In this document: positions 8,454 through 37,127 of the stretch, one piece after another | Numbering within the stretch: position 1 is the stretch's first letter | Layout of the letters: every line of letters starts with the position of its first letter | From: a virus | Length of the DNA: 56,150 nucleotides | Reading direction: 5' to 3' (one strand) | IMG/VR virus record: IMGVR_UViG_3300048014_000023 | Span: 1-56,150 of that record | Made by a program: the position numbers and the translations under genes | Notes under the pieces: generated by a model | Seen by the model: only the letters and a program-made list of their open reading frames with translations | Told to the model about the DNA's origin: nothing | Database searches by the model: none

Positions 8454-8784
8454 GGCCAATTCCGTGACAAACCTGCTTTCTATGACAGGAGGCCTCTTGC
8501 TACCATTCCTTAAAAAACGCCAAGAAGGTTACAGTTCAGGCGTAATCGTAAAACAAAGACAGCCTGACGAAGTAGAAGACAAGAAAGACGAAATGTCTGA
8601 GAGCCACATGGCTTTTGCTAAAGATCTACTACAAGCCATTGAATCTAAAGACGTTAAAGGAATTGCAGAGGCCCTTAACAACGCATTTCAAATCATGGAT
8701 GCCGAACCTCACGTAGAGGGCGATCACATTGAGAAACACAGTTACGATGCCCAAAACCAAAAAGCTGGGCAGGAGAATAGATAA
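8425..8784 (+). CDS. small acidic head-region protein, unknown function
   Basis: The 119-residue protein starts at ATG 8425 inside the terminase gene; an internal ATG at 8482 is an alternative. Residues 50-100 form acidic amphipathic helices (AFAKDLLQAIESKDVKGIAE) ending in a DAEPHVEGDH segment. The product may be a minor head protein or an assembly factor. If 8425 is correct, the conserved GTGACAAAC element at 8464 is translated as part of this gene. Confidence 0.6.
   Translation: MKNGKKVSFKANSVTNLLSMTGGLLLPFLKKRQEGYSSGVIVKQRQPDEVEDKKDEMSESHMAFAKDLLQAIESKDVKGIAEALNNAFQIMDAEPHVEGDHIEKHSYDAQNQKAGQENR
8464..8477 (+). promoter_or_regulatory. conserved GTGACAAAC element, copy 1
   Basis: The sequence is GTGACAAACCTGCT, 10 bases after the terminase stop codon. 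Three further copies at 24126, 30441 and 37114 match at 12 or more of 14 positions and have the same orientation. The element resembles a -35 box (GTGACA) but has no convincing -10 at normal spacing. Confidence 0.5.
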
Positions 8785-9161
8785 TGGCTAATTTCGTTCA
8801 ATCAAGTTCATACGTAGGTTTAAACGCAGCAACGATCAATATACCAACTTCAGACCAGTACAACTTCAACGTCACTCTGTCATTACCTGACAACGACGGA
8901 AGCGCATCTCAAGGTGCTGGCGCAGGTGCTGGAACAGGATCGATTGCTCAATCTCCTTTTATCTCGCAAGTCGTAGTAACTGTTAAACAAAACGGAACAA
9001 CGATTTACACGTCTCAGGCCAGCTCTAAAGGTTTTACGCTCAACTCGGTGACATGCTCAGCTGGTGACGTCATTACTATTACTCCAAGCTCATCTCAGTC
9101 TCAAGACCAACAAATCGAGGCAGTAAAGATGGTCGTATCAGTATCAGAAGGATCGATCTAA
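8784..9161 (+). CDS. beta-rich structural protein
   Basis: The 125-residue protein overlaps the previous stop by one base. It is rich in Ser, Thr, Gly and Val with alternating strands, and contains a glycine/alanine linker (GAGAGAGTG) near residue 45. This is typical of a small virion decoration or head fibre protein. Its place between terminase and portal supports a head role, but the family is not recognised. Confidence 0.6.
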   Translation: MANFVQSSSYVGLNAATINIPTSDQYNFNVTLSLPDNDGSASQGAGAGAGTGSIAQSPFISQVVVTVKQNGTTIYTSQASSKGFTLNSVTCSAGDVITITPSSSQSQDQQIEAVKMVVSVSEGSI

Positions 9162-10468
9162 TGCCATTAATGCACTCAAAATCAAAGAAAGCGTTCGGTA
9201 AAAACGTAGAAGCAGAAATGAAGGCTGGAAAGCCTCAACCCCAGGCTTTGGCAATCGCATACTCAGTAAAGCGCAAGGCAGGAAAGAAAGCCTCTGGCGG
9301 AATGGTTAAGTCTGGTAGCAAAGACATGGACATGGCTCGCGGCGGAATGATGGCTCAAGGCGGAGAAGTATCCGCTAGTAACGAAAAACGCCCAATGCCT
9401 CAAGACATGCATAACGACAAGTTAATGGCTAGCCAGAACCGTGGCGACAAACCAGCAAAAAATGACAGCTGGACGGACAGATCTACGGTGGCGCAAGCTC
9501 AGATCAACAACGGCAGAAAAGTAATGCCGATTAAGCGCCCTAAGATGGTGCCAAGCGACGCTTTTAGCACCCGTTTATACGACGAAGAAGGCCGATTACA
9601 AGAATCAGACAAACCAGGACCATACGGCGAACAGCCACCTGAGCATGATAACGAGATGGGCCCAGACCGACACGGCGACGATGTCCCTGACATGCAAGAC
9701 GAGCACAGCACTAAGAGAAAGCCTTATGCCAAAGGTGGAGAGATTGAAGCTGGTGATGGTGAAAGCCATAACATGTTTAAGCGTACTATGATGGAACCAA
9801 TGGATCCACCAGAAGAGATGTACGAACGTGAAGACCAGCGTCACCACATGATTGAAGATGCACCAAGCATGGACGAAGGCAAGATGCATGCCATGGAGTT
9901 AGACGAGGAAGAGCGCATGAAGATGGGAGCAGACCCAGACATGTCAAAACCGCACAGCGCACCTAAGAGCTACGCCGAAGGTGGAATGGCTCAGTACGAC
10001 GACGCTATGGACCATATCGACCACGAAATGGAATATAACCCAGCATCTGGCAAGTTTACTAAATCAGGTGGAATGACCCGTCCAGAAGACGAGTACGAAG
10101 AAGACCACCACGACAGCATCGCAGCAGCCATAATGGCTAAGAAGTCACGACAAATGAAGATGATGTCAGACAGCGATGACGACGAGATGGCTATGATGGC
10201 TGAAGGTGGAATCTTATCACACGATTCTATCTATTCAGACAATAGCGACATGGCAGACATGAGCCGTAACAACGACGAAGACGCTAACGAAGAAGATCAG
10301 TTGAGTTTAAATGCATTACGCAAAGAAAACTATGATTCTAGCTACTTGGATAAAGACCAGCCGATGAACTCTAACGAGCACGGCGACGACGAAGAGAGTG
10401 ATTCAGAGAACAAGCATGACATGATTTCTAAGATCATGCGTTCAATGAAGAGTAAACGACAATTTTAA
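9161..10468 (+). CDS. acidic low-complexity virion-associated protein with GG motifs
   Basis: This is a 435-residue protein. A lysine-rich N-terminus (SKSKKAFGKNVEAEMKAGKP) leads into a long Met/Asp/Glu/His-rich, probably disordered region. At least six short motifs of the form [MLY]-A-x-G-G are spread through it: MARGG, MAQGGEV, YAKGGEI, YAEGGM, MAEGGIL and similar. The same motif occurs in the proteins at 30826 and 32448. No enzymatic domain is visible. Its location just before the portal suggests an internal head protein or assembly factor. The function is not known. Confidence 0.65.
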   Translation: MPLMHSKSKKAFGKNVEAEMKAGKPQPQALAIAYSVKRKAGKKASGGMVKSGSKDMDMARGGMMAQGGEVSASNEKRPMPQDMHNDKLMASQNRGDKPAKNDSWTDRSTVAQAQINNGRKVMPIKRPKMVPSDAFSTRLYDEEGRLQESDKPGPYGEQPPEHDNEMGPDRHGDDVPDMQDEHSTKRKPYAKGGEIEAGDGESHNMFKRTMMEPMDPPEEMYEREDQRHHMIEDAPSMDEGKMHAMELDEEERMKMGADPDMSKPHSAPKSYAEGGMAQYDDAMDHIDHEMEYNPASGKFTKSGGMTRPEDEYEEDHHDSIAAAIMAKKSRQMKMMSDSDDDEMAMMAEGGILSHDSIYSDNSDMADMSRNNDEDANEEDQLSLNALRKENYDSSYLDKDQPMNSNEHGDDEESDSENKHDMISKIMRSMKSKRQF

Positions 10469-10478
10469 TAAAGGTCTT

Positions 10479-10769
10479 ATGGTAATCAGCGACCTAAAGC
10501 AGCTCCGCGACCTAATCGCTTTGTGTAAAAAACAAGGCGTATTGCGCATTACTGTCGATAACATCGAGATGGAAATCTCGCCCATGGTTGCTAAGACCAG
10601 GACGACCAAAGTAATGGCTGACATTCCTGAAGCTTCCATTAAGGTGCCAAAGTTCAATCCTATTACTAAAGAAATCATTGCTGACGCAGACGTAGAATCA
10701 TTTGACGAGCTGACGGACGAGCAAAAACTATTCTACTCAGCCAGACCAGAAGTACCAGGTGATCAGTGA
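10479..10769 (+). CDS. small protein coupled to the portal gene
   Basis: The 96-residue protein starts at ATG 10479. An N-terminal helix (LKQLRDLIALCKKQGV) is followed by short strands (RITVDNIEMEISP) and an acidic tail. It ends in a GTGA overlap with the portal start, so the two are probably translationally coupled. The function is unknown. Confidence 0.6.
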   Translation: MVISDLKQLRDLIALCKKQGVLRITVDNIEMEISPMVAKTRTTKVMADIPEASIKVPKFNPITKEIIADADVESFDELTDEQKLFYSARPEVPGDQ

Positions 10770-12664
10770 AGGTAACTCCCAGCAAAGCCAAAAGCTCTAT
10801 TACGTTTAAGACTAAAGACATATCTGAGTCTTCAGTCATTACCCCATGGTGGGAACAAAAAGAATCTGACATGGCTGCAGGCTTCTTATTAACCTCGGCA
10901 GCGTATCTAAAAGAGTCACAGGCTTACAGATATAGACAAGCAGCCATTTATGCGAGATTATATGGTAATCAAAGCTTATATAGCTTCGCTGGTAATAATA
11001 TCAGCAAGATGGACCAAACTTATGGACTTCCTCAGGAACGCCCTACATTTAACATCATACAATCAGCTATCGATACTCTCGTATCACGTATCAGCCAGTC
11101 TCGTCCACAACCGGTATTTCTTACAGATGCTTCTGATTATAAGCAACGCAATCTAGCCAAGAAGCTCAACCAGTTCATCCAAGGTGAGTTTTATCAGACA
11201 AAGGCCTATGAGTTGGCCTCTATAGTGCTTAGGGACGCCTTGGTAGAGGGCACAGGCATAGTCCATACCTACGAGACTCCCGACCATAAAGTAGCCTTAG
11301 AACGCGTCCTATTGACTGAGATCCTCATAGACCCTAACGAAGCCATGTACGGTGACCCACGACAGCTCTACCGTATCAAGCTCGTAGACAGAGAAATACT
11401 CCTAGCTAACTTTCCTAAGCACAAAGACAAAATCCTCATGGCCGCTAACGCCTACCCAGACAACTCAGCAGACAGCTCTAAGACTGTCGCAGATCTAGTC
11501 ATGGTCGTAGAGTCATGGCATCTCAAGTCAGGTAAAGACATGAGAGACGGTAGGCACATGATGGCCATAAGCAGCGGAGCCTTGCTAGACGAAGAGTTCA
11601 CGAAAGAACGCTTCCCCTTCTCTTTTTTACACTACAGCCCAAGACTCCTAGGATTCTGGGCCCAAGGCGTGGCAGAGCAGCTCATGGGAACACAAATGGA
11701 GTTAAACTCTATACTCTTTACCATTAGCCGCGCCATCAAGCTCGTAGGCGTACCAAGGGTATTCGTAGAAGAAGGCAGCAAAGTAGCAGCTACGTCGCAT
11801 AACAACGAAATTGGAACTATCGTCAAGTACCGTGGAACAAAACCAATATACGAAGTCGCACCAAGTAACGCCCCGGAGTTATATGCAGAAAGAGATAAGC
11901 TCATACAGTACGGATACCAACAGTGCGGTGTGTCAGCATTGCAAGCGTCGTCTCAAAAACCACAAGGTCTTGATTCAGGCGAAGCCATTAGGACCTACGA
12001 TGACATCTCAACTGATAGGTTCGCTAGTTTGTCAAGACGGTACGACAACCTATTCATTGACCTTACCTACCAAATCGTCGAGCTTGCCAAAGACATCGCT
12101 GAAGAGCAAGGATCGTACCAAACGGTCTACCCAAACAAAAACGGCACGAAGGAAATAGACCTTCCCAAAGCCTCATTAATTAACGACCCTTTCATCGTAC
12201 AATGCTTTACTCAGTCTAGCCTACCAAAAGATCCAGCAGGACGTTTACAAAAAGTCACAGAAATGGTACAATCAGGTATGATTACGATCCAGGAAGGACG
12301 TAGGTTATTAGACTACCCAGACTTAGAACAAATCGAGAAGTTAGCAAACGCCGCTGAAGAACGCATCTTTATGATTTTAGACGACATCTTAGAAACAGGC
12401 AAGTACACACCACCAGACCCTTTCATAGACATAAATTTGGCTACTGACCTGACTACCAGGTACATCAACTTATACGCAACGGCCGGTTTAGAAGAAAGCA
12501 AGATGCAAAAGCTGAGAGACTTCTTCAACCAGATACAAGCCATTAAGATGGCAGCTATGCCGCCACCGCCTCCAGCTGGCGCCCCTCAAGGACAGCCTGC
12601 TCCTCAAGCCGCTCCACAACCAACACCCACCTCACCATTGGTTCCTAACGGGGCTCAACAATGA
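10766..12664 (+). CDS. portal protein
   Basis: The 632-residue protein starts at GTG 10766. Its size, position after TerL and overall pattern (an N-terminal helical region with RPTFNIIQSAIDTLVSRISQ, a central stem/clip region, a Pro/Gln-rich tail) match phage portal proteins. The dodecameric portal forms the DNA channel at one capsid vertex and docks the terminase and then the adaptor encoded at 24723. The last 45 residues (PPPPPAGAPQGQPAPQ) are low-complexity and probably disordered. Confidence 0.85.
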   Translation: MKVTPSKAKSSITFKTKDISESSVITPWWEQKESDMAAGFLLTSAAYLKESQAYRYRQAAIYARLYGNQSLYSFAGNNISKMDQTYGLPQERPTFNIIQSAIDTLVSRISQSRPQPVFLTDASDYKQRNLAKKLNQFIQGEFYQTKAYELASIVLRDALVEGTGIVHTYETPDHKVALERVLLTEILIDPNEAMYGDPRQLYRIKLVDREILLANFPKHKDKILMAANAYPDNSADSSKTVADLVMVVESWHLKSGKDMRDGRHMMAISSGALLDEEFTKERFPFSFLHYSPRLLGFWAQGVAEQLMGTQMELNSILFTISRAIKLVGVPRVFVEEGSKVAATSHNNEIGTIVKYRGTKPIYEVAPSNAPELYAERDKLIQYGYQQCGVSALQASSQKPQGLDSGEAIRTYDDISTDRFASLSRRYDNLFIDLTYQIVELAKDIAEEQGSYQTVYPNKNGTKEIDLPKASLINDPFIVQCFTQSSLPKDPAGRLQKVTEMVQSGMITIQEGRRLLDYPDLEQIEKLANAAEERIFMILDDILETGKYTPPDPFIDINLATDLTTRYINLYATAGLEESKMQKLRDFFNQIQAIKMAAMPPPPPAGAPQGQPAPQAAPQPTPTSPLVPNGAQQ

Positions 12665-12724
12665 TTACGAGATTTAAATCTTTTATCTTAAACACATTTT
12701 TAGACCTAAACCTCGGAGAATAGA

Positions 12725-13762
12725 ATGAAAATCACGCCAGTAGCATCCCCGACCCTCATCCCAGTAAACGGCACTCCAGAATCCGTAAGAACAGCCAAGG
12801 CCGTAGCAGCCTTTAACAAAGGTGCGTCATCTTACGACCAGCAGGCCCAAGAAACACCTGTTTCAAACCCAAACCAGGTGTCAGTAGAAGAATTGTCAGC
12901 TATTAAAGCCCCCGTCCAAGAAGAACAAGTAGAAACTAAGGAAGAAGTACAAGTAGAAGAAAAGCCTGCAGCTAAGACTCCAGAAGAAACAGCGTTGAGC
13001 CGTCAGTTTGCACAGCTCGCACGCCAAGAAAAGGCGTTACGCGCACGACAACAGCAACAAGAACAGGCTTTGAAAGCCAGAGAAGCACAGCTCCAGAAGC
13101 AAGAAGCTGAGCTCCAAACCAAGTATAACATCGATACGACCAAGTATATATCCAGGGATATACTAAAGCAGCAGACTCTCCAAGCCCTTGCTGAAGCAGG
13201 CGTATCATACGATGAGCTGACACAGCAAATCTTGAACCAACAGCCAAGCAACCCACAGGTTGACGCTACCATAAGCCGCTTAGAAGCTAAGATTAAGGCA
13301 TTGGAAGAGCAGACTCAAAACCAACAAAAACAGGCAGAGCAACAGCAACAAGAAAGCTACAAAGCAGCTATCCGTCAAATCGAACAAGACGCTAAGGCAT
13401 TAGTAGCAAACGATCCTAACTTTGAGACTATCAAGGCTACCAACTCGGTAAGAGACGTAGTAGAGTTGATAGAGAGGACGTTTAACGAAACGCAGCAGAT
13501 ACTCACCGTAGAGCAAGCTGCACAAGAGGTAGAAAACTACCTCGTCGATGAGGCATTGAAACTTACTAGAATCGGTAAAATTAAGACCCGACTCGAGCAG
13601 CCTAAGGCCACGGGGGCTCAAGTCGTAAAGCAGACAGCAGGTCAAACCGAGAAGCAGACACAACCAACAATGAAGACTCTAACTAACGCAGCAAGCGGCT
13701 CTAGGAAGCTATCGTCTAGAGAACGTGCCTTACTAGCGTTTAAGGGCGAGTTAAACCGGTAA
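12725..13762 (+). CDS. scaffolding protein
   Basis: The 345-residue protein sits between portal and major capsid protein, the standard scaffold position. It is Gln/Glu/Ala-rich with two long predicted coiled-coil stretches (about 98-140 and 185-225), an acidic N-terminal region and a basic C-terminus (GSRKLSSRERALLAFK). A basic C-terminal helix that contacts the coat is common in phage scaffolds. It would guide coat assembly and then leave the capsid. A CGGAGAATAG ribosome site precedes ATG 12725. Confidence 0.8.
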   Translation: MKITPVASPTLIPVNGTPESVRTAKAVAAFNKGASSYDQQAQETPVSNPNQVSVEELSAIKAPVQEEQVETKEEVQVEEKPAAKTPEETALSRQFAQLARQEKALRARQQQQEQALKAREAQLQKQEAELQTKYNIDTTKYISRDILKQQTLQALAEAGVSYDELTQQILNQQPSNPQVDATISRLEAKIKALEEQTQNQQKQAEQQQQESYKAAIRQIEQDAKALVANDPNFETIKATNSVRDVVELIERTFNETQQILTVEQAAQEVENYLVDEALKLTRIGKIKTRLEQPKATGAQVVKQTAGQTEKQTQPTMKTLTNAASGSRKLSSRERALLAFKGELNR

Positions 13763-13861
13763 CTCAAGAGAGTTACTGATCTATATCTAGGCTAGATCAC
13801 GAATAAGATGTTCATAATCACAACGATTGTGATGCCTCGATACGTCATGGTGGCGTATTGA
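13759..13861 (+). promoter_or_regulatory. cluster of four hairpins upstream of the capsid gene
   Basis: Four successive inverted repeats fill the gap: 13759-13776 (7 bp, loop AAGA), 13777-13799 (7 bp), 13817-13833 (7 bp, loop CGA) and 13837-13861 (8 bp with one G-T). None is followed by a T-run. A ribosome site (TTTTGGAGAATTAAA) and the capsid start come next. Likely roles are mRNA processing or stabilisation of the capsid message. Confidence 0.65.
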
Positions 13862-13887
13862 GAATAACTTAATTTTGGAGAATTAAA

Positions 13888-15186
13888 ATGGCTGCAACAT
13901 ATGCCAATAGTGCGAACCAGATCGCCGCACTTAAAGAATTGTACACTGATGATAAAGAGTACATGAAAGATCTAGTGTACAAGGAAAACCCATTCCTTGC
14001 ACTCGTCCCTAAGAACGAAAGTCCAGACGGATTTGCCGGTAAATACATTCCAGTTCCTTTGGAATACGGTACTCCCCAAGGACGAAGCCACACCTTCGCA
14101 AACGCACAAAGCCAGCAAACACCAACAGCGTTGGTTAGCTACTTTGTATACGTAATCGAAGATTATCAACTTGTTACTATCACTAACCTTTTAATGGAAC
14201 AGACTAAGACTAACGCCGGTGCGTTTGTTGATGCTGCTAAATTACAAATGGATGGTGGTTTCCGTAACATCACTAACAACATCGCTTTTGAACTGTTCGG
14301 TTCTGGAACTGCTACTCGCGGTATCAGCTCTGCAGCTTCGACTCAAAACGGCGTTGTAGTTGGTGGCGTTGTTCTTCCATTGAGCAACTCTCAACAGATC
14401 GTAGCTTTTGAAGTTGGAATGCTCCTCGTTGCTTCTGCAACTGATGGCGGCGCTCCCTCGACTGATACAGTCTTGATCACTGCTGTTGATCGTGCTAACG
14501 GTATCGTATACGGAACAGCTTCGGCTGCTACGCTTTCTGCTAACTGGGCTATCGGCACAGGCATTGCTTACTTGACAGTTTCTGGTGACCTTCCGTCAGC
14601 AGGCGCTGCCAACACTGGCTCGTACCTTGCATTGTCTGGATTGGCTGCATGGCTTCCTGTTACGACTCCTGCCGCTAACGACAGCTTCTGGAGTGTAAAC
14701 CGTTCTGCAGATCCTACTCGACTGGCTGGTTGCCGTTATAACGCGCAAGCCTACACGATCGAAGAAGGTCTGACTAACGCGTTGGCATTCTTAAACCGTG
14801 AAGGTGGAAAACCAGACCTTTGCATCATGGACTTTGCTTCATATGCTTCTCTGGTCAACAGCCTTGGCGCAAAAGTTCAGTACGTTCAAGTTGACCATGA
14901 CGAAGTTGAAGTATCATTTGAAGGTATTACCTTTCAATCTGCTTACGGCCGCGTCACTGTATTAGCTGATCGTTCTTGCCAACCTCAGACTGCATACTTA
15001 TTGACGATGAATACGTGGAAACTCCGATCACTCGGAAAAGTTCCTCATATCTTGACTTATGGTATGGAAGGTCTTGAAGGTCTCCGTGTTGGTAATGCTG
15101 ATGCATTAGAGATCCGCATTGGCTATTATGGCAACCTTATTTGTAGCGCACCAGGTTGGAACTGCGTAGTCCAATTAAGTGCTTAA
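13888..15186 (+). CDS. major capsid protein (HK97-fold)
   Basis: The 432-residue protein follows the scaffold and precedes a double terminator, the typical setting of a highly expressed coat gene. The N-terminal helix (IAALKELYTDDKEYMKDLVY), the QMDGGFRNITNNIAFELFGS segment (about residues 116-135) and the late YAQAYTIEEGLTNAL-like region fit an HK97-type coat. A Ser/Thr/Gly-rich insertion around 145-235 may be a surface domain. The fold is inferred from position, size and general sequence pattern. Confidence 0.87.
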   Translation: MAATYANSANQIAALKELYTDDKEYMKDLVYKENPFLALVPKNESPDGFAGKYIPVPLEYGTPQGRSHTFANAQSQQTPTALVSYFVYVIEDYQLVTITNLLMEQTKTNAGAFVDAAKLQMDGGFRNITNNIAFELFGSGTATRGISSAASTQNGVVVGGVVLPLSNSQQIVAFEVGMLLVASATDGGAPSTDTVLITAVDRANGIVYGTASAATLSANWAIGTGIAYLTVSGDLPSAGAANTGSYLALSGLAAWLPVTTPAANDSFWSVNRSADPTRLAGCRYNAQAYTIEEGLTNALAFLNREGGKPDLCIMDFASYASLVNSLGAKVQYVQVDHDEVEVSFEGITFQSAYGRVTVLADRSCQPQTAYLLTMNTWKLRSLGKVPHILTYGMEGLEGLRVGNADALEIRIGYYGNLICSAPGWNCVVQLSA

Positions 15187-15200
15187 TATTAGTTAATTAT

Positions 15201-15278
15201 AATAGCCTAGTTAAATCTGGGCTATTATTTAAATGCTTTGTAAGTGTTATGCTCCCTACGTTATGTAGGGGGCTTTTA
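15201..15278 (+). terminator. double terminator after the capsid gene
   Basis: The first hairpin (15201-15226) pairs AATAGCC with GGCTATT. The second, stronger one (15250-15278) pairs GCTCCCTAC with GTAGGGGGC around a GTTAT loop and ends in TTTTAT. It limits read-through from the capsid gene into the decoration genes. Confidence 0.85.
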
Positions 15279-15291
15279 TAAATAAGGTACA

Positions 15292-15627
15292 ATGAACTAT
15301 AACTTTCCCATCGCATTCTTTGATCCACCAGAGGTCGTCAACACGACGGTCACGCCTATACCTGGTTCTGGATCGTTACCCCTGCAGGTAATAGCGGATA
15401 CGGGATTTAGGAGTGGAGTCGCCATAGACTTCATTGACACCACCGGTGATTTCATCGGAGTGTATTTAGGTGCAGCAGGACACGAAGAACTTCTTTGCAT
15501 AATAGGAAACGGACAATCAGGCAGAAGCTGGGGAGTATTCCCAGCGCATAGTAGAGTCTCACTACGATCATTAACAGCAACTCCAATCACTAACGGTACC
15601 GTCGTAGGTACGATAATGAGTTACTGA
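15292..15627 (+). CDS. small beta-rich virion protein
   Basis: The 111-residue protein begins behind AAGGTACA, just after the capsid terminator. It reads as alternating strands with a central IGNGQSGRSWGVFPAHSRVS segment and a C-terminal TNGTVVGTIMSY. The C-terminal layout resembles the end of the protein at 37548 (GSRVAYKAL, then a short strand), so both may share a small beta domain. It is probably a decoration or neck protein. Confidence 0.55.
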   Translation: MNYNFPIAFFDPPEVVNTTVTPIPGSGSLPLQVIADTGFRSGVAIDFIDTTGDFIGVYLGAAGHEELLCIIGNGQSGRSWGVFPAHSRVSLRSLTATPITNGTVVGTIMSY

Positions 15628-16184
15628 TGGCATCAACACAGATTAAAGATGGATTCAATGGTGGTAGTGATAACCAGGCTAAGGTAGACAGCCAGGGTCG
15701 ATTGTACGTCTATGACGCAGGCGGAGGAACAGGCAGTAACGCCTCAGTAGGCCCTAACGGTTCTACGGCTCCTACAAGCTCTACAGAGATCGCAGGCATA
15801 AACCCTGAGGGAAACCTCACACCGGTATCTGTAACCGACAGCGGGGCTATTAACGTCGTAACCAGCGGCACTTCTACGGTGTCAGGAACAGTCGTATCAG
15901 AAACTGCAGGACTTAACAGCTTTCAAACTAGCCAATACACGATAGGAACAACTGCTGTACACTTAGCTCCGACACCGCTTGCAAACAGAAGCAGCATAAG
16001 CATTACGATTACGGCTTCTGCAGGTGTTCCAGTCTTTATAGGAAACTCAGCCGCAGTAACTATCACTACCGGCTACCCGCTATACAACGGATCTACGATA
16101 CAGCTAGACTTAACGCCCACCGGTAACGTCTACGCTATCTCAACTACGGCAGGACAAACTGCCTCAGTACTGGAGATAGCTTAA
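15627..16184 (+). CDS. beta-rich decoration/fibre-like protein with shared repeat module
   Basis: The 185-residue protein overlaps its neighbour by one base. Residues 1-35 contain a DNQAKVDSQGRLYVYDAG segment. Residues 38-75 (NASVGPNGSTAPTSSTEIAG, then NPEGNL) match a module found three times in the protein at 37548. The C-terminal part is a Ser/Thr-rich beta domain. Shared modules in separate virion proteins suggest a common structural repeat or a recombination-built fibre set. Confidence 0.6.
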   Translation: MASTQIKDGFNGGSDNQAKVDSQGRLYVYDAGGGTGSNASVGPNGSTAPTSSTEIAGINPEGNLTPVSVTDSGAINVVTSGTSTVSGTVVSETAGLNSFQTSQYTIGTTAVHLAPTPLANRSSISITITASAGVPVFIGNSAAVTITTGYPLYNGSTIQLDLTPTGNVYAISTTAGQTASVLEIA

Positions 16185-17996: not shown

Positions 17997-18008
17997 TTAA
18001 GGAGCCGC

Positions 18009-20750: not shown

Positions 20751-20792
20751 AGTCTAACTAAGAACCTCCGATGAGTTATCATGGAGGTAATT

Positions 20793-23585: not shown

Positions 23586-23810
23586 ATGACAAAATGGTTT
23601 TATAACAAGATCTTAGGCATATTAAGAACTAAAGAAGGCTGTACAATAGAGACCTACGTAGAATATACTGTAAATAGTTCTGCAGAAGCAATAGTAAGAG
23701 ACGTGCTAGGTTATAGGTACCGAGTCACAGTAGAGGCGTTAGGTAGAACATTTGATGATCGTAAGATGGATGATAACAACAATAAGCTCGATTTTACTCA
23801 AGTGGTATAA
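23586..23810 (+). CDS. small unknown protein
   Basis: The 74-residue protein begins at the base after the previous stop, behind GGAGGATAATTA. It has a basic aromatic start (TKWFYNKILGILRTKEG) and then a strand-rich centre. Not recognised. Confidence 0.45.
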   Translation: MTKWFYNKILGILRTKEGCTIETYVEYTVNSSAEAIVRDVLGYRYRVTVEALGRTFDDRKMDDNNNKLDFTQVV

Positions 23811-23826
23811 ACCGATAGGTGCAGCT

Positions 23827-24129
23827 ATGATTACTACGTCAACTTCACGTCTATTATTCAAAGTAGGAAGCTTGCAAGTATTTGAATTAACTGCAGCTTC
23901 TTACATTCCCAAAGAAAGAGTTTATCATCAGTACGTATGGAGAGACAATAGGATGCAGGCGCACCAAGGGACTTTTCCTACGCTCTATGAATGCATGGAA
24001 AATTATGGAAACAACTTACAAGCCTACCTGATGGGCAGTAAAGTTCCTCTAAATGCCCAAAAACCCCTGTCAGTCGTTGAAGACAACGTCATACAAGTGT
24101 CTTTTAGGGACAAAAAACGCATTAAGTGA
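23827..24129 (+). CDS. small unknown protein
   Basis: ATG 23827 gives a 100-residue product; a TTG at 23752 would extend it but overlaps the upstream gene by 59 bases, so it is not preferred. The sequence has alternating strands, then WRDNRMQAHQGTFPTLYECM. Its TGA stop lies inside the second GTGACAAAC element. Confidence 0.5.
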   Translation: MITTSTSRLLFKVGSLQVFELTAASYIPKERVYHQYVWRDNRMQAHQGTFPTLYECMENYGNNLQAYLMGSKVPLNAQKPLSVVEDNVIQVSFRDKKRIK

Positions 24130-24139
24130 CAAACATGCT
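24126..24139 (+). promoter_or_regulatory. conserved GTGACAAAC element, copy 2
   Basis: GTGACAAACATGCT overlaps the stop codon of the upstream gene and begins a 120-base untranslated stretch before the virion gene at 24249. It matches the copies at 8464, 30441 and 37114. Confidence 0.55.
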
Positions 24140-24248
24140 CTTTATGGAGTCGGCGTTAGATCGGTTCCTGGGAATCGCGTGGGTGCTAAATTTCCAATAA
24201 TACCTCTACCCTCCCGTAAACATCGGGTTATATGTAAATGAGGACCAT

Positions 24249-24647
24249 ATGTCAAATGTAAACTACCGCTCACAATTCATGTCTAGCTACGCAGGTCAAT
24301 TCGTAAAATTGATGGCCAAAGTATCTATCGGCGCTTCTGGAGCTCCTACCATAGCTTCTAAGTCTGGAATGGGCATTTCTTCTATCGTAAGAAACAGCGC
24401 AGGTAACTATACTATTAACTTAACTCAGGCTTTTTATAATTTATTTGGAATTCAAGTAGTTAGCATCTCAGGATCGAGCGCTCCTGCTGCTCCATTATTA
24501 AACATTGTTTCAAACAACGTTCAAACAAGTTCAGCTCCCTCTGTAATCATTCAACTGCGAAACGCTTCAGGTGCAGCTACAGACCCTGCTTCTGGCGAAG
24601 TACTGTTAATTGAAATTGACCTTAACAGAAGTAGCACCGGTAACTAA
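24249..24647 (+). CDS. beta-rich virion protein
   Basis: The 132-residue protein starts behind ATGAGGACCAT. The sequence (GMGISSIVRNSAGNYTINLT; SAPSVIIQLRNASGAATDPA) has the Ser/Ala/Asn-rich alternating strands of small phage structural proteins, with a C-terminal strand (GEVLLIEIDLNRSS). It opens the tail/neck gene block, and its long leader suggests its own promoter. Confidence 0.6.
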   Translation: MSNVNYRSQFMSSYAGQFVKLMAKVSIGASGAPTIASKSGMGISSIVRNSAGNYTINLTQAFYNLFGIQVVSISGSSAPAAPLLNIVSNNVQTSSAPSVIIQLRNASGAATDPASGEVLLIEIDLNRSSTGN

Positions 24648-24705: not shown

Positions 24706-24722
24706 AAACGTCTAAGGAGCTT

Positions 24723-27234: not shown

Positions 27235-27240
27235 GGCATC

Positions 27241-30200: not shown

Positions 30201-30408
30201 GGGCGCATCTGCCGACGGCGGCGTCTTCAGAGCTAGGATATTCCCGCAGAAGCAAAAATGCGAGTCTTTCCAAATATCGATAAACGAAATATACGACGCT
30301 AGTTACGCCCAGCCTCCAGGCCAAGGATTGACATTGTCAGGAATGAACATCGTAGCCGGCGTTAAGAAAGGCTACAGACCAAGCACAGCTGCAAGGTCAT
30401 TTGGGTAA
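27241..30408 (+). CDS. large tail nozzle / DNA-stabilisation protein
   Basis: The 1055-residue protein starts at GTG 27241 behind GAGGCATC. The N-terminal IPINFAKGLDTKSDPYQL and RITKRNGFTNVTTVP segments match the start of podovirus tail tube/nozzle proteins (T7 gp12 type, P22 gp10 type). The rest is continuous beta-rich sequence consistent with propeller or barrel domains. It would extend the adaptor and close the DNA channel. It is the largest protein in the window. No tape-measure protein exists, consistent with a short tail. Confidence 0.75.
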   Translation: MALQKQPIPINFAKGLDTKSDPYQLSMDTFLVMQNSVFTTTGRITKRNGFTNVTTVPNKIQTTLTTINDNLVATGSNLYALSQDTSQWLNQGIVQPISISTLPLVRNSYSQTSQDMAVSSLGLACLVFIQNGVAYFQISDSSTGQQIVKQTSLLSIDTGSSAIVAPRVFVVGNYFYITYLATVSGQSQLRYIPISMANPNTATSSQLISSTVYSTTSGYNAAVLNNTLYVAWCSSASVISVTYIIGFSVQVPTTITGHTATYMSVTIDQYDSITPIIWVSFWDSTSTNGYTASFSQSLVLLSGPTQIITGMSLNAFTAVAANGKLSFFYEVANTYASPYPVTGVKTDYIVANTLTGTTLGTPKVILRSVGLASKAFINYVYTLPSAPRAQVSGPTLPTGATLISSTIYMFATYGEINTDTNNGAPDQPTYFLIDSAGNIYSRQAYSNGGGYTTTQVLPSVSYENGSYFFPYLFADLLVTVNKGTNNGIPQNSIYTQTGVSLAQFQINAEAQQSSEIGGSLYLTGGQLWQYDGVKPVEQGFQVWPDNVQAVWSATGGSMAAIPVSGGSNTNAYYYQFCYEWTDAQGVIQRSAPSIPFAVTTTGSGTTGSVTLYVPTLRLTYKIAPNPVRIVGYRWSQGQQVYYEFTSVTSPTINDPTIDFVTITDTQADSNILGNTIIYTTGGVVEDIAAPPCIDSCLFNDRLFLIDAEDQNLLWYSKQVIEATTVEMSDLLTIFVAPTLGAQGSTGFMTALSAMDDKLIIFKKDAIYYINGTGPDNTGANSTYSDPTFITASVGCANPKSIVLMPNGLMFQSDKGIWLLGRDLSTNYIGAPVEIYNSQTVNSSETIPGTNQVRFILDNNMTLVYDYYFNQWSTFTNIQAISSCLWQGYQTYLNTQGQVFQETPGTYVDGSSPVLVSLTSAWMNLAGLQGYERFYFMYLLGTYYSPFKLNVQFAYDYNPSSLQNVIVSPDNQAQPWGGEANWGSGTPWGASADGGVFRARIFPQKQKCESFQISINEIYDASYAQPPGQGLTLSGMNIVAGVKKGYRPSTAARSFG

Positions 30409-30440
30409 TGATTGTTAAATGGGTAATAATTGGTAAGTTA

Positions 30441-30454
30441 GTGACAAACGTGCC
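30441..30454 (+). promoter_or_regulatory. conserved GTGACAAAC element, copy 3
   Basis: GTGACAAACGTGCC lies 32 bases after the nozzle stop codon and 36 bases before ATG 30491. It is the most divergent copy at the last position (C instead of T) but keeps the first nine bases exactly. Confidence 0.55.
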
Positions 30455-30490
30455 TTTTTGAGCCTGACGACCAGTGGCTCAGGGGTAATA

Positions 30491-30826
30491 ATGTCACTCT
30501 ACGGGGATTACATACTCGAAAACCGTGGCGACTATATTGTCGAAAACGACAAGGGTTTTGCTACTTACAGGTACCTAAACGAAGGTAAATCAGTGTATAT
30601 AGTAGACATTTACGTAAAACCTGAGCACAGATCAAACCACGTCGCATCTCAACTGGCAGACGAAGTAGCAAAGACAGCTAAGCTAACAAAACAATCCATA
30701 GAAATGTTAGGAACCGTAGTTCCAGGCGCTAACAAAAGCACCGAGAGTCTCCAAGTTTTATTAAACTACGGCATGAAGCTTCAATCAATCCAAGGTAACA
30801 TGATAGTAATGAGTAAGGAAATATAA
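30491..30826 (+). CDS. divergent GNAT-family acetyltransferase
   Basis: ATG 30491 behind AGGGGTAATA gives 111 residues; an upstream TTG (30458) is unlikely. Motif A reads VDIYVKPEHRSNHVASQL (38-55), with the canonical R-x-x-G replaced by Arg47-x-x-His50. Earlier strands (DKGFATYRYL) and the later ALTKQSIEML-like part fit the small GNAT fold. It sits among virion genes, so it may act on a virion or host protein. The His substitution raises doubt about acetyl-CoA binding. Confidence 0.6.
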   Translation: MSLYGDYILENRGDYIVENDKGFATYRYLNEGKSVYIVDIYVKPEHRSNHVASQLADEVAKTAKLTKQSIEMLGTVVPGANKSTESLQVLLNYGMKLQSIQGNMIVMSKEI

Positions 30827-32439
30827 TGGGAGCGGTTTCAGGACTTTTAGGAATAGGCGGAGGCGCTAGCGGTACAGGGTACTCGGCCCCTCAGCAAGCA
30901 AACATAACTAACGCTACTACGGCAGCTCAAGCCAATACAGCTTATGGCGGAGCTCAAAACAGCTTACAGCAGCAACAACAACTCCTACAAGCACTACAAG
31001 CTCAAAACGGACTTCAAAACCAAAGTAGCGTTTACAACCAGTTACAAGGTGTCGCCAACGGAACTGGCCCAAACCCAGCTCAAGCCCAGCTAGCCCAAGC
31101 TACAGGCTCTAACGTTGCTAACCAAGCAGCTTTGATGGCAGGACAGCGTGGATCCGGTGCCAATGCCGGTTTAATCGCACGACAAGCCGCACAGCAAGGC
31201 GCCAACACTCAACAGCAGGCAGCAGGTCAGGCAGCGTCTCTGCAAGCCCAGCAGTCTTTAAACGCGTTAAGCGGCCTAGGATCACTGGCAACTCAACAAG
31301 TAGCCCAACAGCAGCAACAAGCCAACACTAACGCTAATACTCAACTAGGCGAACAACAAAACATATTAAACGCCATAGCAGGACAAAACAGCGCAGCCGT
31401 AGGAAGTCAACAAAGCGTAAACTCAGGTAACGCCGCTTTGGCATCAACTGAGATGGGTGCTCAAAACAACTTAATCGGTAACGCAGCTGGTGGTGTAGGT
31501 ACGGCATTGCAGGCAATAAAATTAGCTCAAGGTGGCGTAATTCCTCATTACGTTAACGGCGGTGGAGTCAGCGTAGATTACGACAACCACGACGACGTGT
31601 TTAGCACAAGTCCCACCGCTAGCGGCGCAACTCCTCTTGATACTCCCGCTTCTACGGCACCTGCGGCTCCCGCCAAAGCAGCAGCTCCGGTCGCATCCGC
31701 TGCACCTGATGCTCCAGCAGCTAAGTCTGCCCTCGGTAACGTACTCCACGGAATACTAAATGGCGGAAGTAACACCTCAAATGGAGGTAATAACGCCTCA
31801 AATAGCGGTTCCCAGCTTCAAGGCATGGGCTACGCCGGTCAACAAATAGGTAAAGGAATAGGAACAGCGATAAGCGGTTTATTCGGCGGTTCTAGCTCCT
31901 CTTCAGCTCCAGAAAAGAACGCAAACCCGACTGACGACCAGATGGCAGCATTTATGGGCGCACCTGGAACTACGCAAGCGAACGGATTGCCAACAGACGA
32001 CGCAATGTACAAGATGATGTCTTCAGGTGACCCAAATTCCTTAGTAGGAACTCCATCGCAAACTACTATACCATCAGGACCTAGCCAACAGTTAGATGCC
32101 AGCAACGACGACGTAGGACTCATGGCAGCTCACGGGGGTAAGGTTCCAGCACTAGTTTCTCCAGGTGAAAGATACTTGCCTCCTAAGGAAGTAAAGAAAG
32201 TTGCAAAAGAAGGCAAAGACCCGATTAAAGCCGGAGAAAAGATACCGGGTAAACCAAAAGTCGGCGGCGCGAAGAACAGTTACGCTAACGATACTGTTCC
32301 TAAGACTCTCGAAGAAGGTGGAATAGTCCTTCCTAGAAGCGTAACTCAAGCCAAGAACCCCCACGAAGAAGCTTATAAATTTGTAAAAGCCATAATGGCT
32401 AAGAACAACGGTCAACTTCCATCGTCTAAGAAATCGTAA
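30826..32439 (+). CDS. internal virion / ejection protein (Gln/Ala-rich)
   Basis: The 537-residue protein overlaps the GNAT gene by one base. A small glycine-rich start (SGLLGIGGGASG) leads into a 220-residue Gln/Ala/Asn helical region (LQQQQQLLQALQAQNGLQNQ) like those of phage injection proteins. The second half is Pro/Ala/Ser-rich with GG motifs (LAQGGVIPHY, AAHGGKVPAL, LEEGGIVLPR) and a basic end. With the next two genes it forms a trio resembling the P22 gp7/gp20/gp16 or T7 gp14/15/16 ejection sets. Confidence 0.65.
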   Translation: MGAVSGLLGIGGGASGTGYSAPQQANITNATTAAQANTAYGGAQNSLQQQQQLLQALQAQNGLQNQSSVYNQLQGVANGTGPNPAQAQLAQATGSNVANQAALMAGQRGSGANAGLIARQAAQQGANTQQQAAGQAASLQAQQSLNALSGLGSLATQQVAQQQQQANTNANTQLGEQQNILNAIAGQNSAAVGSQQSVNSGNAALASTEMGAQNNLIGNAAGGVGTALQAIKLAQGGVIPHYVNGGGVSVDYDNHDDVFSTSPTASGATPLDTPASTAPAAPAKAAAPVASAAPDAPAAKSALGNVLHGILNGGSNTSNGGNNASNSGSQLQGMGYAGQQIGKGIGTAISGLFGGSSSSSAPEKNANPTDDQMAAFMGAPGTTQANGLPTDDAMYKMMSSGDPNSLVGTPSQTTIPSGPSQQLDASNDDVGLMAAHGGKVPALVSPGERYLPPKEVKKVAKEGKDPIKAGEKIPGKPKVGGAKNSYANDTVPKTLEEGGIVLPRSVTQAKNPHEEAYKFVKAIMAKNNGQLPSSKKS

Positions 32440-32447
32440 AGGATAAA

Positions 32448-34517
32448 ATGGCTAACCCATTAGGTATCGACCTCAACAAGTTCAAGCACGTATCTAGCGA
32501 TAAACATACGACTACGCTTCAACATAAAGACGGACATTTATTAAGAATAGCTCACAGCGTCCTAGCTCCGGCGTCTCGCAAACAATTAGAAGCGTTGGCC
32601 AACGTAGGTAAAGAAAACGCAACGCACGACCAAGCCGAAGAAGCTCAGTATCAAGACAGCAAGAAGATGGCTGACGGCGGAAGCATCCTTCCGCTTAAAG
32701 GCGTTAGGAACGCTCCAGCATTTGGCGGCGGTAAGAGCTTGTCAGGACATGAGCTAGAGAAGAGAGCAAAGACAGACAACCCTGAGCATAAGCAGACGCA
32801 CCTCAACAACGCAAAGCACCTATCAAAAGAAAACACGCAAAATATAAAGGAAATGCCAAACCCAAAGCTTCAAGGCTTAGCAGCTGGTGGGTCGGTAATG
32901 CCACTTGCATTAGATGACATGTACGCAGAAGGCGGATCTACAGACAAGGGCATCGTAGACATACGTCCAGACAAGGGGTTTGGTAAGATCATAGTAACTA
33001 ACGGGCAAGACGAGCCAAGTCCTTACGCCGACGGCGGAGACGTACAACCTCAAGACGACAGCGCTCCTCAGCAGAACATGAGCGTAGCAGTTCCTCAAGA
33101 CCAAACGTTCATGCAACAACTCCTAAGTAAGCAACAACCTCAGCAACCGCAACAGTTAGACGAAGCATCAATCCAACCTCAGATAGCTCAAGACATTCCT
33201 CCTGAGAAGAAAAAAGAAGAGCCTAAAGACAGTAAAGACAGTAAAGACAGTAAAGACAGTAAAGACAATTCTGACGTTGACAATATAGTTTCAAACCAGC
33301 AAGAACAACTTCAGAAGGCTTACACGGAACAAAAATTAGGAGCTCAACAACAAGAGCAGGCAGCAGCCCAACAAGCCCAGCAACAACAAAAAGCCATAGA
33401 CGACAACGCCACCGCCCAAAACCTCGCGCAAACGACTTTTCACGAAGAATTGGCAAAATTAAACACCGAACGTAACAACATATTAGACGACATTCAGACA
33501 AACAAGATAGACCCTCAGAAGTATTGGACAGGTAATGCCCAGGGCGAAGGTGGACACAGCAAGATCATGGCCGGACTTGGCATCATTCTTGCGGGTTTTA
33601 ATCCTACGAATAACCAAAACGCCGCTATTAACTTCTTAAAGTATCAGATGGATCAAAACTTAGAAGGTCAAAAAGCCGATCTGATGCGAAAGCAGACTCT
33701 CCTAGGCAACAACTTAGCTCAATACAGAAACGTCAGGGACGCGCTAGACGCATCACGACTCCAGCAAGCAGAGATACTGAGGGCTCAGATGATGCAGGCA
33801 AGTAACAACGCTGCAACACTTCAAGCCAAAGCTGCCATGAACAACAACATCGGGTTGTTAGACAAAGAGTACGGACCATTGCAAGCGAGCTTTGCGATGC
33901 GTAAAGCCATAATGAACTTGGCAAGCCAACCTGACGACGGATCTGGAATTAAAGACAAAGCCATCCAGCATACCTTGAATTATATGAATGCTACTCCTGG
34001 AATGCAAGAAGACGCGAAGAACTTGGCAGGACGGTACGTACCAAATGTTGGACTAAGCAATCAACAAGTTCCTCTGTCTGTTCGTGAACAAATAGTTGGT
34101 AGCCAAAAGTTAGACGCTGCTGTAAAAAACTTACAACAATACGTTGCACAACACGGCGGTTTGTTAGACAGGATGAATCCAAGGGAAAGAGCATTGGCAG
34201 CTCAGATGGTACTTCCAATTCAAGCTGCTTTCCGAGAAGGAACTCTTGGAACAGTCTACCGAGAAGGTGAGCAGCCACTTTTAGATAAGGCAGTCAAAGG
34301 ACAACCCTTAGACCTGCTTCAGTACTTTTTAAAGACAGAACCAGCTAAACTCAACGAATTGTTAAACGCAAACAAGAGAAGTACTGATATACTTAAGATT
34401 AATAATGGGTTGCCTGTTCAAAAGCAGATGCCGCAACAACAGCAACAACAACCTGTTATCGGGAAAGACGGTAAAAAATACGTCCGACAAGGTAACTACA
34501 TGGTACCAGTGAAGTAA
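32448..34517 (+). CDS. internal virion protein with GG motifs and coiled coils
   Basis: The 689-residue protein starts behind AAAGGATAAA. Residues 75-210 hold GG motifs (MADGGSILPL, AAGGSVMPLA, YAEGGSTD, YADGGDV). A charged KDS repeat near residue 265 is followed by Gln-rich coiled coil (about 280-345). The C-terminal half is helical (NFLKYQMDQNLEGQKADLMR). It ends in a Gln-rich tail with GKDGKKYVRQGNYMVPVK. It is likely packaged in the head and ejected with the genome. The function is inferred from position and composition. Confidence 0.65.
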   Translation: MANPLGIDLNKFKHVSSDKHTTTLQHKDGHLLRIAHSVLAPASRKQLEALANVGKENATHDQAEEAQYQDSKKMADGGSILPLKGVRNAPAFGGGKSLSGHELEKRAKTDNPEHKQTHLNNAKHLSKENTQNIKEMPNPKLQGLAAGGSVMPLALDDMYAEGGSTDKGIVDIRPDKGFGKIIVTNGQDEPSPYADGGDVQPQDDSAPQQNMSVAVPQDQTFMQQLLSKQQPQQPQQLDEASIQPQIAQDIPPEKKKEEPKDSKDSKDSKDSKDNSDVDNIVSNQQEQLQKAYTEQKLGAQQQEQAAAQQAQQQQKAIDDNATAQNLAQTTFHEELAKLNTERNNILDDIQTNKIDPQKYWTGNAQGEGGHSKIMAGLGIILAGFNPTNNQNAAINFLKYQMDQNLEGQKADLMRKQTLLGNNLAQYRNVRDALDASRLQQAEILRAQMMQASNNAATLQAKAAMNNNIGLLDKEYGPLQASFAMRKAIMNLASQPDDGSGIKDKAIQHTLNYMNATPGMQEDAKNLAGRYVPNVGLSNQQVPLSVREQIVGSQKLDAAVKNLQQYVAQHGGLLDRMNPRERALAAQMVLPIQAAFREGTLGTVYREGEQPLLDKAVKGQPLDLLQYFLKTEPAKLNELLNANKRSTDILKINNGLPVQKQMPQQQQQQPVIGKDGKKYVRQGNYMVPVK
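33225..33266 (+). repeat. 9-bp in-frame microsatellite (Lys-Asp-Ser repeat)
   Basis: The 9-base unit AAAGACAGT is repeated four times plus a partial copy, encoding (KDS)4KD inside the internal virion protein. Copy number change would keep the reading frame. Confidence 0.85.
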
Positions 34518-36943
34518 TGGATCAAATTCCAGAAGGAGCCATACCGGTTGATCAGTTTCAGCCGGCTCAAACTCCACAACCTCAGCAACAGCCTCAGCAA
34601 CAGCCCCAACAAGGTGAAGAGACTCCTCCGCCTGGCGCCATACCCGTAGATCAATTCCAGACACAAGATGAAACCTACAATACTCCTAGCCAGCAATTAA
34701 AAACAGCAGCCGAAGGTCTTGGAGAAGGGCTTATAGGACCAGCAGCCCCTTACTTAGAAAAGAAAATCCTAGGCGTAAAAGCAGAAGACATCCTAAACAG
34801 AGAGCAAGCGCACCCTTACATTAAGGGTGGTGCCCAGATAGCAGGTCTCTTCAGCCCAGTTGGAGAAGGCGCAGCCCTAGCAAAGGTAGGAGCGACTATC
34901 ACCAAGGCTTTTGGGTTGGCAAGTGATGCTAGCTTATTAGCAAAGATTGGTGTTAAAACCGTATCTCAAGCAGCAGAGATGGGTTTGTTTCAGGCCGGAG
35001 ACGAAGTCTCAAAGATGATCAAAGAAGATCCGCAGGCATCGGCAGAGTCAGCCATCGCCAACGTCAAGACAGCAGCAGCCCTCGGTGGTGCTTTTGGCGC
35101 TACGCTTGGGGCTGTATCTCCGTTATTTAAAGTCGCAATCGGGGATAAGGTAGGAAAACTCCTAGAAGATTTTAAAGGTGAAGCTAACTTTAGGTTAGAC
35201 AACCCTGATCTTCACGAAGCTTTTACAAACGAGCTTAACAATTACTACACTAAGACTAGCAAGGCTTTTGATTCTACCTGGGGCTTTGACGGAATTAAAT
35301 CACAAGCCGTAGAAAAACTAGCTCCCGAATTAAACGACAAGATCATAGGTCAAACTAATGATTTCTTGGAAAAATCTCAAAATTTAGTAGACGACATGAA
35401 GTCTAATCCTAATAGGTACCCAGCTTACCTCGTAGACAAGGTAGAAAATAGCCTTTCTAAGTACACAGAAAACGCTCAATCAGCCCAGAGCAGCTCAGAG
35501 TTGTTTCAAGCTACTAACCAGTTCAAAAGAGAGCTTCAAGGCTTGAGTAAGTTTGATAAGCAAGTCCTATCGATAAGCCCTGAATTCGAATTTTTGCAGA
35601 GTCTTAAAGGCATAGGAAAAGACATACGCGTCGGACTAGAAGACAAAGACGTGTGGGGTAAAGCCGGCGACGTGCAAGAAAAAATAAACGCCGCTGCCTC
35701 TAAGTATTTTGATCCTTTGAAAGATTTTGAAAAAGCTTTTGCTACTACGCTCAACGGAGAAAAGATAATAGATCCTGGTAAAACCAATACTTTCATAAAT
35801 CAGTTTGGTGACGTAAAGGCGACGATTAAGACTCAAAAATTAAAAAACTTCGTAGACGCTTCTGAAGAATTTCGAAACGAGTTGTCAAAGATTCACGAAG
35901 CAGCTGGAATAGAAAATACTGTCGAACCAGCATCTACGGCCATAATTGGACATTTATTAGACAAGCCAACGGCTGGAAGTAAGTTAGCCGCCAAACTTGT
36001 CGACCACGGCTTGTCTAGCATAGCCGGTAAGACTGCAGGAAGCTTAGTCGGAGGTTACGCAGGAAGCTTCATAGGTCACCCTGAGATTGGTGGACTGATA
36101 GGCGGTTACGCACTAGGACCAATGTTCAGCTCTGTCCTACCTGGCTTGACAAAACCAATATTAGAAAACGAAACCTCGGTTAACGGAGCAAAAGCTGCAA
36201 TAGATTACGCCGTAAACGTCATGAAGGGCGAAACAGCCTTAAACCGAGGTGTTGCAGGTATATTCAAACCAAGTACGGAAGTCATCGCTTCTAAGAACAT
36301 GCCTGACGACAAAGACAGAGAAAGAATAGACAACCTCGTCCAAAAAGTAAACGACGATCCAAACAGCCTGATACAAAACCAACCAGGCCATTTAGGACAT
36401 TACTTACCAGATCATCAGGCTGCCGTAGGTATGACTACTACGAAGGTAATGACGTACTTAAACCAGTTGAAACCACGAGCAACAAGGAACAGTCCGCTAG
36501 ACGCCAACATAGACCCAACTCCTGCCGAAGAAGCTCGTTACAAGCGGGCACTAGACATAGCTGTCAACCCTGACGTTGTAATGAAGCACATAAAAGACGG
36601 GACTCTCCAGACGACTGACCTTCAAGACCTACAAAACATGTTTCCTAACAGATACCAAAGAATGTGCGGTAAGTTGACAAACGAGATTGCCGGATTAAAA
36701 GAAGACAACAGGAACATACCCTACAAGACAAAGATAGCTTTGAGCTTATGCCTAGGACAACCGCTAGACTCTTCGATGAGCCCTCAATCCATAGTCGCTG
36801 CACAACCTCAACCTAAACCGCAGCCCCAGCAACAACCTCAAGGTAAGACTAAGAAAGGCACATCAACCTTAGGTAAGAGTAATCACTCGTATCAAACTCA
36901 GACGCAAGCAGCAGAATCTGACAGAAACGGCAGAAACGACTAA
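34517..36943 (+). CDS. large internal virion protein (ejection protein)
   Basis: The 808-residue protein starts in a TAATG overlap. GAIPVDQFQ occurs twice within the first 50 residues, separated by a Pro/Gln-rich linker. Small-residue helices that could insert into membrane follow (about 100-125 and 185-210: AALGGAFGATLGAVSPLF). Two more lie at about 495-540 (GKTAGSLVGGYAGSFIGHP; GGLIGGYALGPMF). The Gly/Ala zipper-like segments suit an ejection protein that forms a trans-envelope channel. No lytic transglycosylase motif was found. Confidence 0.65.
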   Translation: MDQIPEGAIPVDQFQPAQTPQPQQQPQQQPQQGEETPPPGAIPVDQFQTQDETYNTPSQQLKTAAEGLGEGLIGPAAPYLEKKILGVKAEDILNREQAHPYIKGGAQIAGLFSPVGEGAALAKVGATITKAFGLASDASLLAKIGVKTVSQAAEMGLFQAGDEVSKMIKEDPQASAESAIANVKTAAALGGAFGATLGAVSPLFKVAIGDKVGKLLEDFKGEANFRLDNPDLHEAFTNELNNYYTKTSKAFDSTWGFDGIKSQAVEKLAPELNDKIIGQTNDFLEKSQNLVDDMKSNPNRYPAYLVDKVENSLSKYTENAQSAQSSSELFQATNQFKRELQGLSKFDKQVLSISPEFEFLQSLKGIGKDIRVGLEDKDVWGKAGDVQEKINAAASKYFDPLKDFEKAFATTLNGEKIIDPGKTNTFINQFGDVKATIKTQKLKNFVDASEEFRNELSKIHEAAGIENTVEPASTAIIGHLLDKPTAGSKLAAKLVDHGLSSIAGKTAGSLVGGYAGSFIGHPEIGGLIGGYALGPMFSSVLPGLTKPILENETSVNGAKAAIDYAVNVMKGETALNRGVAGIFKPSTEVIASKNMPDDKDRERIDNLVQKVNDDPNSLIQNQPGHLGHYLPDHQAAVGMTTTKVMTYLNQLKPRATRNSPLDANIDPTPAEEARYKRALDIAVNPDVVMKHIKDGTLQTTDLQDLQNMFPNRYQRMCGKLTNEIAGLKEDNRNIPYKTKIALSLCLGQPLDSSMSPQSIVAAQPQPKPQPQQQPQGKTKKGTSTLGKSNHSYQTQTQAAESDRNGRND

Positions 36944-36946
36944 AGT

Positions 36947-36975
36947 TTGACAAAAGCCCTGCCGAATAGTAATAT
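36947..36975 (+). promoter_or_regulatory. sigma70-like promoter upstream of 36991
   Basis: A perfect TTGACA (36947-36952), a 17-base spacer and TAATAT (36970-36975) follow the end of the ejection gene. A CGGGAGGACGT ribosome site and ATG 36991 are close downstream. Confidence 0.6.
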
Positions 36976-36990
36976 AACTCGGGAGGACGT

Positions 36991-37113
36991 ATGGCAAAGT
37001 ACATCGTATTTACAATATTCTTAATTTCTGGCGTAGGAACCGTCCCAGCTCTATTATACCTCGTAGCCAGCATGGTTATAGACGCTTCGATAGAGAACGC
37101 TAAGAAGCAATAA
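36991..37113 (+). CDS. 40-residue membrane protein
   Basis: ATG 36991 with a strong GGGAGG site encodes 40 residues with a long hydrophobic stretch (YIVFTIFLISGVGTVPALLY and LVASMVI), enough for one kinked or two short membrane helices. It ends in a charged tail (ENAKKQ). It has its own promoter. A holin-like or membrane-modifying role is possible but unsupported by motif. Confidence 0.55.
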   Translation: MAKYIVFTIFLISGVGTVPALLYLVASMVIDASIENAKKQ

Positions 37114-37127
37114 GTGACAAACCTGCT
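37114..37127 (+). promoter_or_regulatory. conserved GTGACAAAC element, copy 4
   Basis: GTGACAAACCTGCT is identical to copy 1 and begins at the base after the stop codon of the membrane peptide, 45 bases before ATG 37173. Confidence 0.55.

Follow-up and report, generated by a model that had tools for sequence, protein, structure and literature searches.

A short DNA element that is repeated at fixed positions within a phage genome, and that is replaced by a different repeated element at the equivalent positions of each relative, points, as far as comparison of sequences can tell, to an on-switch for late genes that changes fast and is private to each genome. In the window (that is, the whole stretch of 56,150 bases analysed here) there are four copies, and the evidence argues strongly that the element is a promoter. 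The copies are probably late promoters read by the host RNA polymerase once a phage factor has redirected it; the most likely candidate for this factor is a predicted helix-turn-helix (HTH) protein encoded upstream of the first of them (Table 1).

The window holds almost all of a tailed-phage genome, whose clade is known here from metagenomes only. This virus record encodes a helicase-primase, a family A DNA polymerase, a terminase, a portal and a capsid protein, together with UvsX- and SbcCD-like proteins; because the two ends of the window are neighbours within a syntenic record (G003), it is close to complete, with little missing. Relatives were collected from IMG/VR in two scans, which gave 124 and 150 candidates and from each of which the best 80 were kept. 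No relative of the window's portal or HTH protein was found by tblastn among 50,697 phage records; cultured phages yielded partial matches to its terminase in three records only (26-28%) and no near DNA match to bases 1-25000; and a search via portal relatives gave no lead to a host among 84,980 bacterial and archaeal species genomes. The window also contains an array of many 6-base repeat units (CCATNG) at 43520-43760 and two ClpP-like head-protease homologues lying close together on opposite strands (45696-46436, minus; 48113-48610, plus). No tRNA genes were found in it; a tRNA gene does occur in a related phage contig (L184:6176-6247).

A preliminary description of this DNA had reported four plus-strand copies of a 14-base motif, and the pattern GTGACAAAC[ACG]TGC[TC] indeed matches the window exactly four times, always on the plus strand, and not once in 100 dinucleotide shuffles of it. 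The first nine bases, GTGACAAAC, said to be invariant, are found at the same four places and nowhere else (the shuffles contain 0.50 such matches on average and 2 at most); allowing two mismatches in the full motif adds three sites, all on the minus strand, versus 2.5 expected in total. The copies are named here by junction, such that the first, second, third and fourth along the window are i, iii, iv and ii, respectively. Their placement within about 33 bases of gene ends, with two of them touching stop codons, likewise holds: copy i begins 11 nt past the terminase stop (8453) and copy iv 33 nt past a stop at 30408, with a likely ATG downstream at 30491; copy iii overlaps the TGA of the ORF at 23752-24129; and copy ii abuts the TAA at 37111-37113. 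Copy i lies outside any gene if, as is likely, the ATG listed at 8425 is not the true start; relatives place the start of this gene at the MLPFLK codon, which here is a TTG at 8497 preceded by GGAGG. The repeat is thus real, but the element is longer than the 14 bases described, extending over about 20-22 bp.

Table 1. Location of the repeated elements, their neighbouring genes and the candidate regulatory genes within the window.
Feature	Coordinates	Strand	Basis
Late-promoter-like element, copy i, between terminase large subunit and MLPFLK gene	8464..8485	+	Exact match; orthologous junction in relatives
Late-promoter-like element, copy iii, upstream of tail-fibre-like gene	24126..24147	+	Exact match; junction in relatives
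Late-promoter-like element, copy iv, after 1055-aa gene	30441..30462	+	Exact match; junction in relatives
Late-promoter-like element, copy ii, before M-S-S-R-P gene	37114..37135	+	Exact match; junction in relatives
Terminase large subunit, upstream of copy i	7026..8453	+	PHROG terminase matches
Gene downstream of copy i, TTG start, MLPFLK...	8497..8784	+	Start inferred from relatives
Gene downstream of copy iii, preceded by a leader of about 100 nt	24249..24647	+	Weak PHROG tail-fibre match
Gene downstream of copy iv	30491..30826	+	Weak acetyltransferase match
Gene downstream of copy ii	37173..37547	+	
Candidate late transcription factor, a helix-turn-helix protein of 134 aa; gene between those for DNA polymerase and terminase	5445..5849	+	In 20 of 20 records; predicted fold
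114-aa helical protein, possible partner, gene adjoining HTH gene	5120..5464	+	Conserved position; confident fold

The sequence of the window's element is not conserved in its relatives; rather, each relative repeats an element of its own, about 20 bp long, at the equivalent junctions, and this sequence differs in almost every genome of the clade. The junctions in question lie between the terminase and MLPFLK genes (i), before the M-S-S-R-P gene (ii), before a tail-fibre-like gene (iii), and after the gene for a 1055-aa protein or ahead of the large gene that comes next (iv). All four are occupied by GGGACGTAGCGGCCTTATAG in G008, by ACCTAATACGCTATATTA in G014 and by GGACTGTATCGCAAT in G016, with four-way identity at 15 of 15 positions within each of these genomes; in G006, TAATGAACGAATAGCCTTCTAT occupies three junctions and occurs once more upstream of gene iii. 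A site recognised by the host would not vary in this way, so that a genome-specific element at fixed junctions favours what the preliminary description had proposed--namely, that this is not a host promoter but a late promoter or activator site specific to the phage.

Two comparisons give this pattern quantitative form. Across 133 contigs, each of which yielded one junction or more, the best 16-mer match between junctions reached at least 14 of 16 positions in 21% of 254 within-contig pairs versus 0.3% of 762 between-contig pairs. Likewise, when the junctions of 25 long genomes were scored jointly and set against mixtures that combined junctions of different genomes (20 for each genome, 500 in all), 20 of the 25 scored above every mixture having an equal number of junctions; G007 and G026 scored above the 99th and the 95th percentile, respectively, and three (G013, G021 and G024) fell below the 95% level of the null. 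(G006 and G007 are near-duplicates and do not count as independent.) Several other genomes have one junction without a copy in the automatic test, from which the window's copy i is also absent, the ORF start at 8425 having been used there; copy i was added by hand for the averaging described below.

Matrices derived from 68 instances in 21 genomes--leaving out G007 as a near-duplicate, and G013, G021 and G024, which have no clear motif--find no other position on either strand that scores as high as the weakest instance. The genome scan recommended at the outset thus returns only the junction instances in these 21 genomes; because each matrix was built from its own instances, this outcome demonstrates specificity, not discovery. 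A k-mer repeat search of whole genomes, run with no intergenic filter, was swamped by coding repeats. Scanning viral contigs with the window's own motif gave isolated matches here and there, as chance would produce, and was set aside.

The shape of the element was obtained by averaging over 71 instances from 20 genomes, with instances matching at 10 of 15 positions being kept, including the doubtful ones at junction i of G020 and junction iii of G026. Within-genome identity stays near background (about 0.29) up to the base just before the block, where it rises at an abrupt edge; it is high over the first 15 bp, which are the selected and most constant bases, remains at 0.48-0.63 over positions 15-21, outside the selection made by the search, fades from about 22 bp downstream, and returns to background near +27. 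On this profile the element reads as a recognition block followed by a start-like tail, its end being TATAG-, TTAAG- or TTGAG-like. A short leader and then a ribosome site follow: the start codon lies 38-52 nt from the element at junction ii for most contigs whose motif is clear, and about 85-125 nt from it at junction iii, in a survey in which three contigs share identical sequence. As a sigma-70 -10 box the end of the element is poor (the T at position 6 is often missing), and no -35 is conserved. The hint of a -35 box in GTGACA is not borne out, because the corresponding sequence is wholly different in other genomes and no sigma-70-type pair starting at the element was found at the three copies scanned (the second to fourth along the window).

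The leaders downstream of element iii have features of their own. In some relatives (for example, 3300015171_000012, locus L220, and 3300005435_000036, locus L240) the leader before the tail-fibre-like gene contains an H-type pseudoknot of about 50 nt with AGAGAAAT as a joining strand; among 15 distinct sequences of this class, 10 of 10 pairs have changed on both sides and 99.3% of cells are paired. Six loci gave no Rfam match at the gathering threshold, and a search by E-value gave a stretch of L220 a single sub-threshold match (20.5 bits versus a gathering score of 50). In a second class, represented by G003, G006, G008, G010 and G014, a 5' GAGATnnCCTC is complementary to a GAGGnTATC that covers the ribosome site, and the core is GGTGAG; over 23 sequences the longest helix averages 8.0, versus 6.5 with shuffled partners. 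The window's own leader iii (24148-24248) belongs to neither class; its CCTC..CCTCC..GGG-type stretch resembles those of 3300037069_000697 and 3300010233_000106.

Contiguous elements of about 20 bp, present in several copies per genome on a single strand, situated in intergenic gaps right after stop codons and often ending, as the T7 promoter does, in a TATAG-like sequence (CTATAG, TTATAG), might also be promoters for a T7-like single-subunit RNA polymerase that is either too diverged to detect or supplied from elsewhere, and fast-changing specificity is typical of T7-like polymerase/promoter systems. Unlike such systems, however, the 20 long records contain no match to the single-subunit polymerase model (PF00940), which the T7 control matched at E 9.9e-110--in keeping with the earlier remark that the window holds no phage RNA polymerase. 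Moreover, the window's ORFs of more than about 300 aa all belong to other families or look like virion or fibre proteins, and the adjoining of its ends in G003 leaves little of the genome in which a polymerase gene could be sought. This reading is therefore unlikely, even though the contiguous form of the element is closer to that of a single-subunit polymerase promoter and to that extent speaks against the preferred one. The Rpb2/beta-subunit domain (PF00562), of which phage versions can be very diverged, was detected in 0 of 20 records and 14 of 14 controls, and sigma region 2 (PF04542) in 0 of 20 records and 10 of 14 control genomes, a model that a diverged region 2 could escape.

If the host polymerase reads the element, then a phage factor would be required to direct it there, and the predicted HTH protein is the most likely candidate. 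Exactly one copy is encoded in each of the 20 long records, and T7 has none. Members of the family are 120-160 aa long and are encoded between the DNA polymerase and terminase genes, upstream of copy i, which is the position expected of a factor made before the late genes. The 48 aligned members are 19-44% identical to that of the window (portal proteins: 62-75% in eight genomes). The structural model has a mean pLDDT of 86, with most of the C-terminal half above 90. Foldseek found nothing below E 0.7 with this model; a second look with VIA-align, from which alone the sigma-4 trend comes, gave matches mostly to sigma region 4 and LuxR-type HTH domains, with middling Z scores for the sigma-4 domains (7.4 down to about 5) and an rmsd of 2-6. 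At the sequence level, Sigma70_r4_2 matches two of the 48 members weakly. In a Mantel test over 20 genomes, motif similarity correlated only weakly with HTH identity (rho 0.22), and no less with portal identity (0.28); for the putative recognition helix, the correlation was not significant (rho 0.14, p 0.07). Because this test did not single out the HTH protein, its assignment rests on elimination and on its fold. In 42 of the 44 loci where both were located, the gene for the 114-aa protein lies at most 60 nt from the HTH gene; its model is confident (pLDDT 95) and has no PDB match below E 0.2.

The elements might instead act in RNA or during elongation--as loading sites for Q-like antitermination, or as processing or translation elements--in that they form part of 5' leaders and are on the coding strand, that the leaders downstream are structured in relatives, and that the Q21 complex is among the fold matches of the HTH protein. 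The four copies in the window, however, share no common leader fold (z-scores +0.42, +1.00, -2.71 and -0.58), their primary sequence is genome-specific and is kept identical, with no compensatory changes, and four well-separated sites at operon heads suit promoters better, all of which makes this interpretation rather improbable. Still less probable is that they are packaging, replication or recombination sites, with the HTH protein being a small terminase or other DNA-processing factor: although the HTH and terminase genes are near each other and the repeats mark module boundaries, a different short protein (6736-7029) directly adjoins terminase, the four directional copies are always just upstream of the same genes, and repeats that differ from one genome to the next could not support recombination among phages. 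Host promoters of the ordinary kind, or repeats due to chance, can hardly explain a motif that is absent from shuffles and that varies between relatives yet is repeated within each; in their favour one could cite the resemblance of GTGACA to a -35 hexamer and the chance frequency of promoter-like sites in the region.

Late promoters redirected by a phage factor have partial counterparts elsewhere, even though no description of such a system was found in the open-access subset of the literature. T4 late promoters have a short common -10-like box, unlike the long genome-specific block seen here, and sigma region 2, as noted, was not detected in the present records. In the cited accounts, so far as they go, the host polymerase is retargeted to T4 late genes by the phage-encoded factors gp55, gp33 and gp45 (PMC2988020, PMC6024815). 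Retargeting of the host enzyme to late genes by a phage factor is likewise what is proposed here. Phages of the phiKZ/AR9 type encode multisubunit polymerases, unlike the present phages, in which the PF00562 search described above found none. Phage-specific classes of late promoter are described for them in the accounts cited (PMC4666361, PMC5312081). In phage Mu, according to the account cited, the middle-gene activator C turns on the late promoters lys, I, P and mom through the host RNA polymerase and binds upstream of the -35 (PMC4461284). The resemblance lies in several separate late promoters being switched on together by one activator, as proposed here, and in one small phage HTH protein per genome, as with Mu C and Mor; the difference is that in the present element the putative start region follows immediately on the block, with no conserved -35, and the Mor model (PF08765) matches only one of the 48 HTH homologues (E 0.0026).

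On the preferred reading--late promoters used by a redirected host polymerase--early and middle genes would be transcribed by the host polymerase, and the HTH protein would accumulate as it is made from the upstream replication and packaging operon. Each copy would be an element of about 20-22 bp heading a late operon, in which a recognition block of about 15 bp is followed by an AT-rich start region. The HTH protein would bind the block at all four places and bring or retarget the host polymerase, with transcription starting at the block's downstream end. Once this one factor is expressed, four late transcripts would be turned on together, one starting past the terminase gene, one ahead of the tail-fibre-like gene and the other two ahead of further virion modules. 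Recognition would have diverged so quickly that almost every genome of the clade uses a code of its own. A bolder version is possible but doubtful: that the clade holds dozens of mutually orthogonal late-promoter codes, in which one sigma-4-like protein of about 130 aa reads a contiguous element of about 20 bp abutting the start, replacing the -35/-10 logic without a phage polymerase and having its specificity rewritten at almost every speciation.

With the rule of four junctions, sequence alone is enough to read the likely late promoter of any further genome of the clade. If the interpretation is right, it provides a late-gene strategy for a phage group for which no cultured relative was found here, along with about twenty promoter/regulator pairs from nature that are unequal in sequence and fixed in genomic position. 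Such pairs would make it possible to ask directly how changes in a regulator go together with changes in all of its sites, and they would be a source of orthogonal promoter parts.
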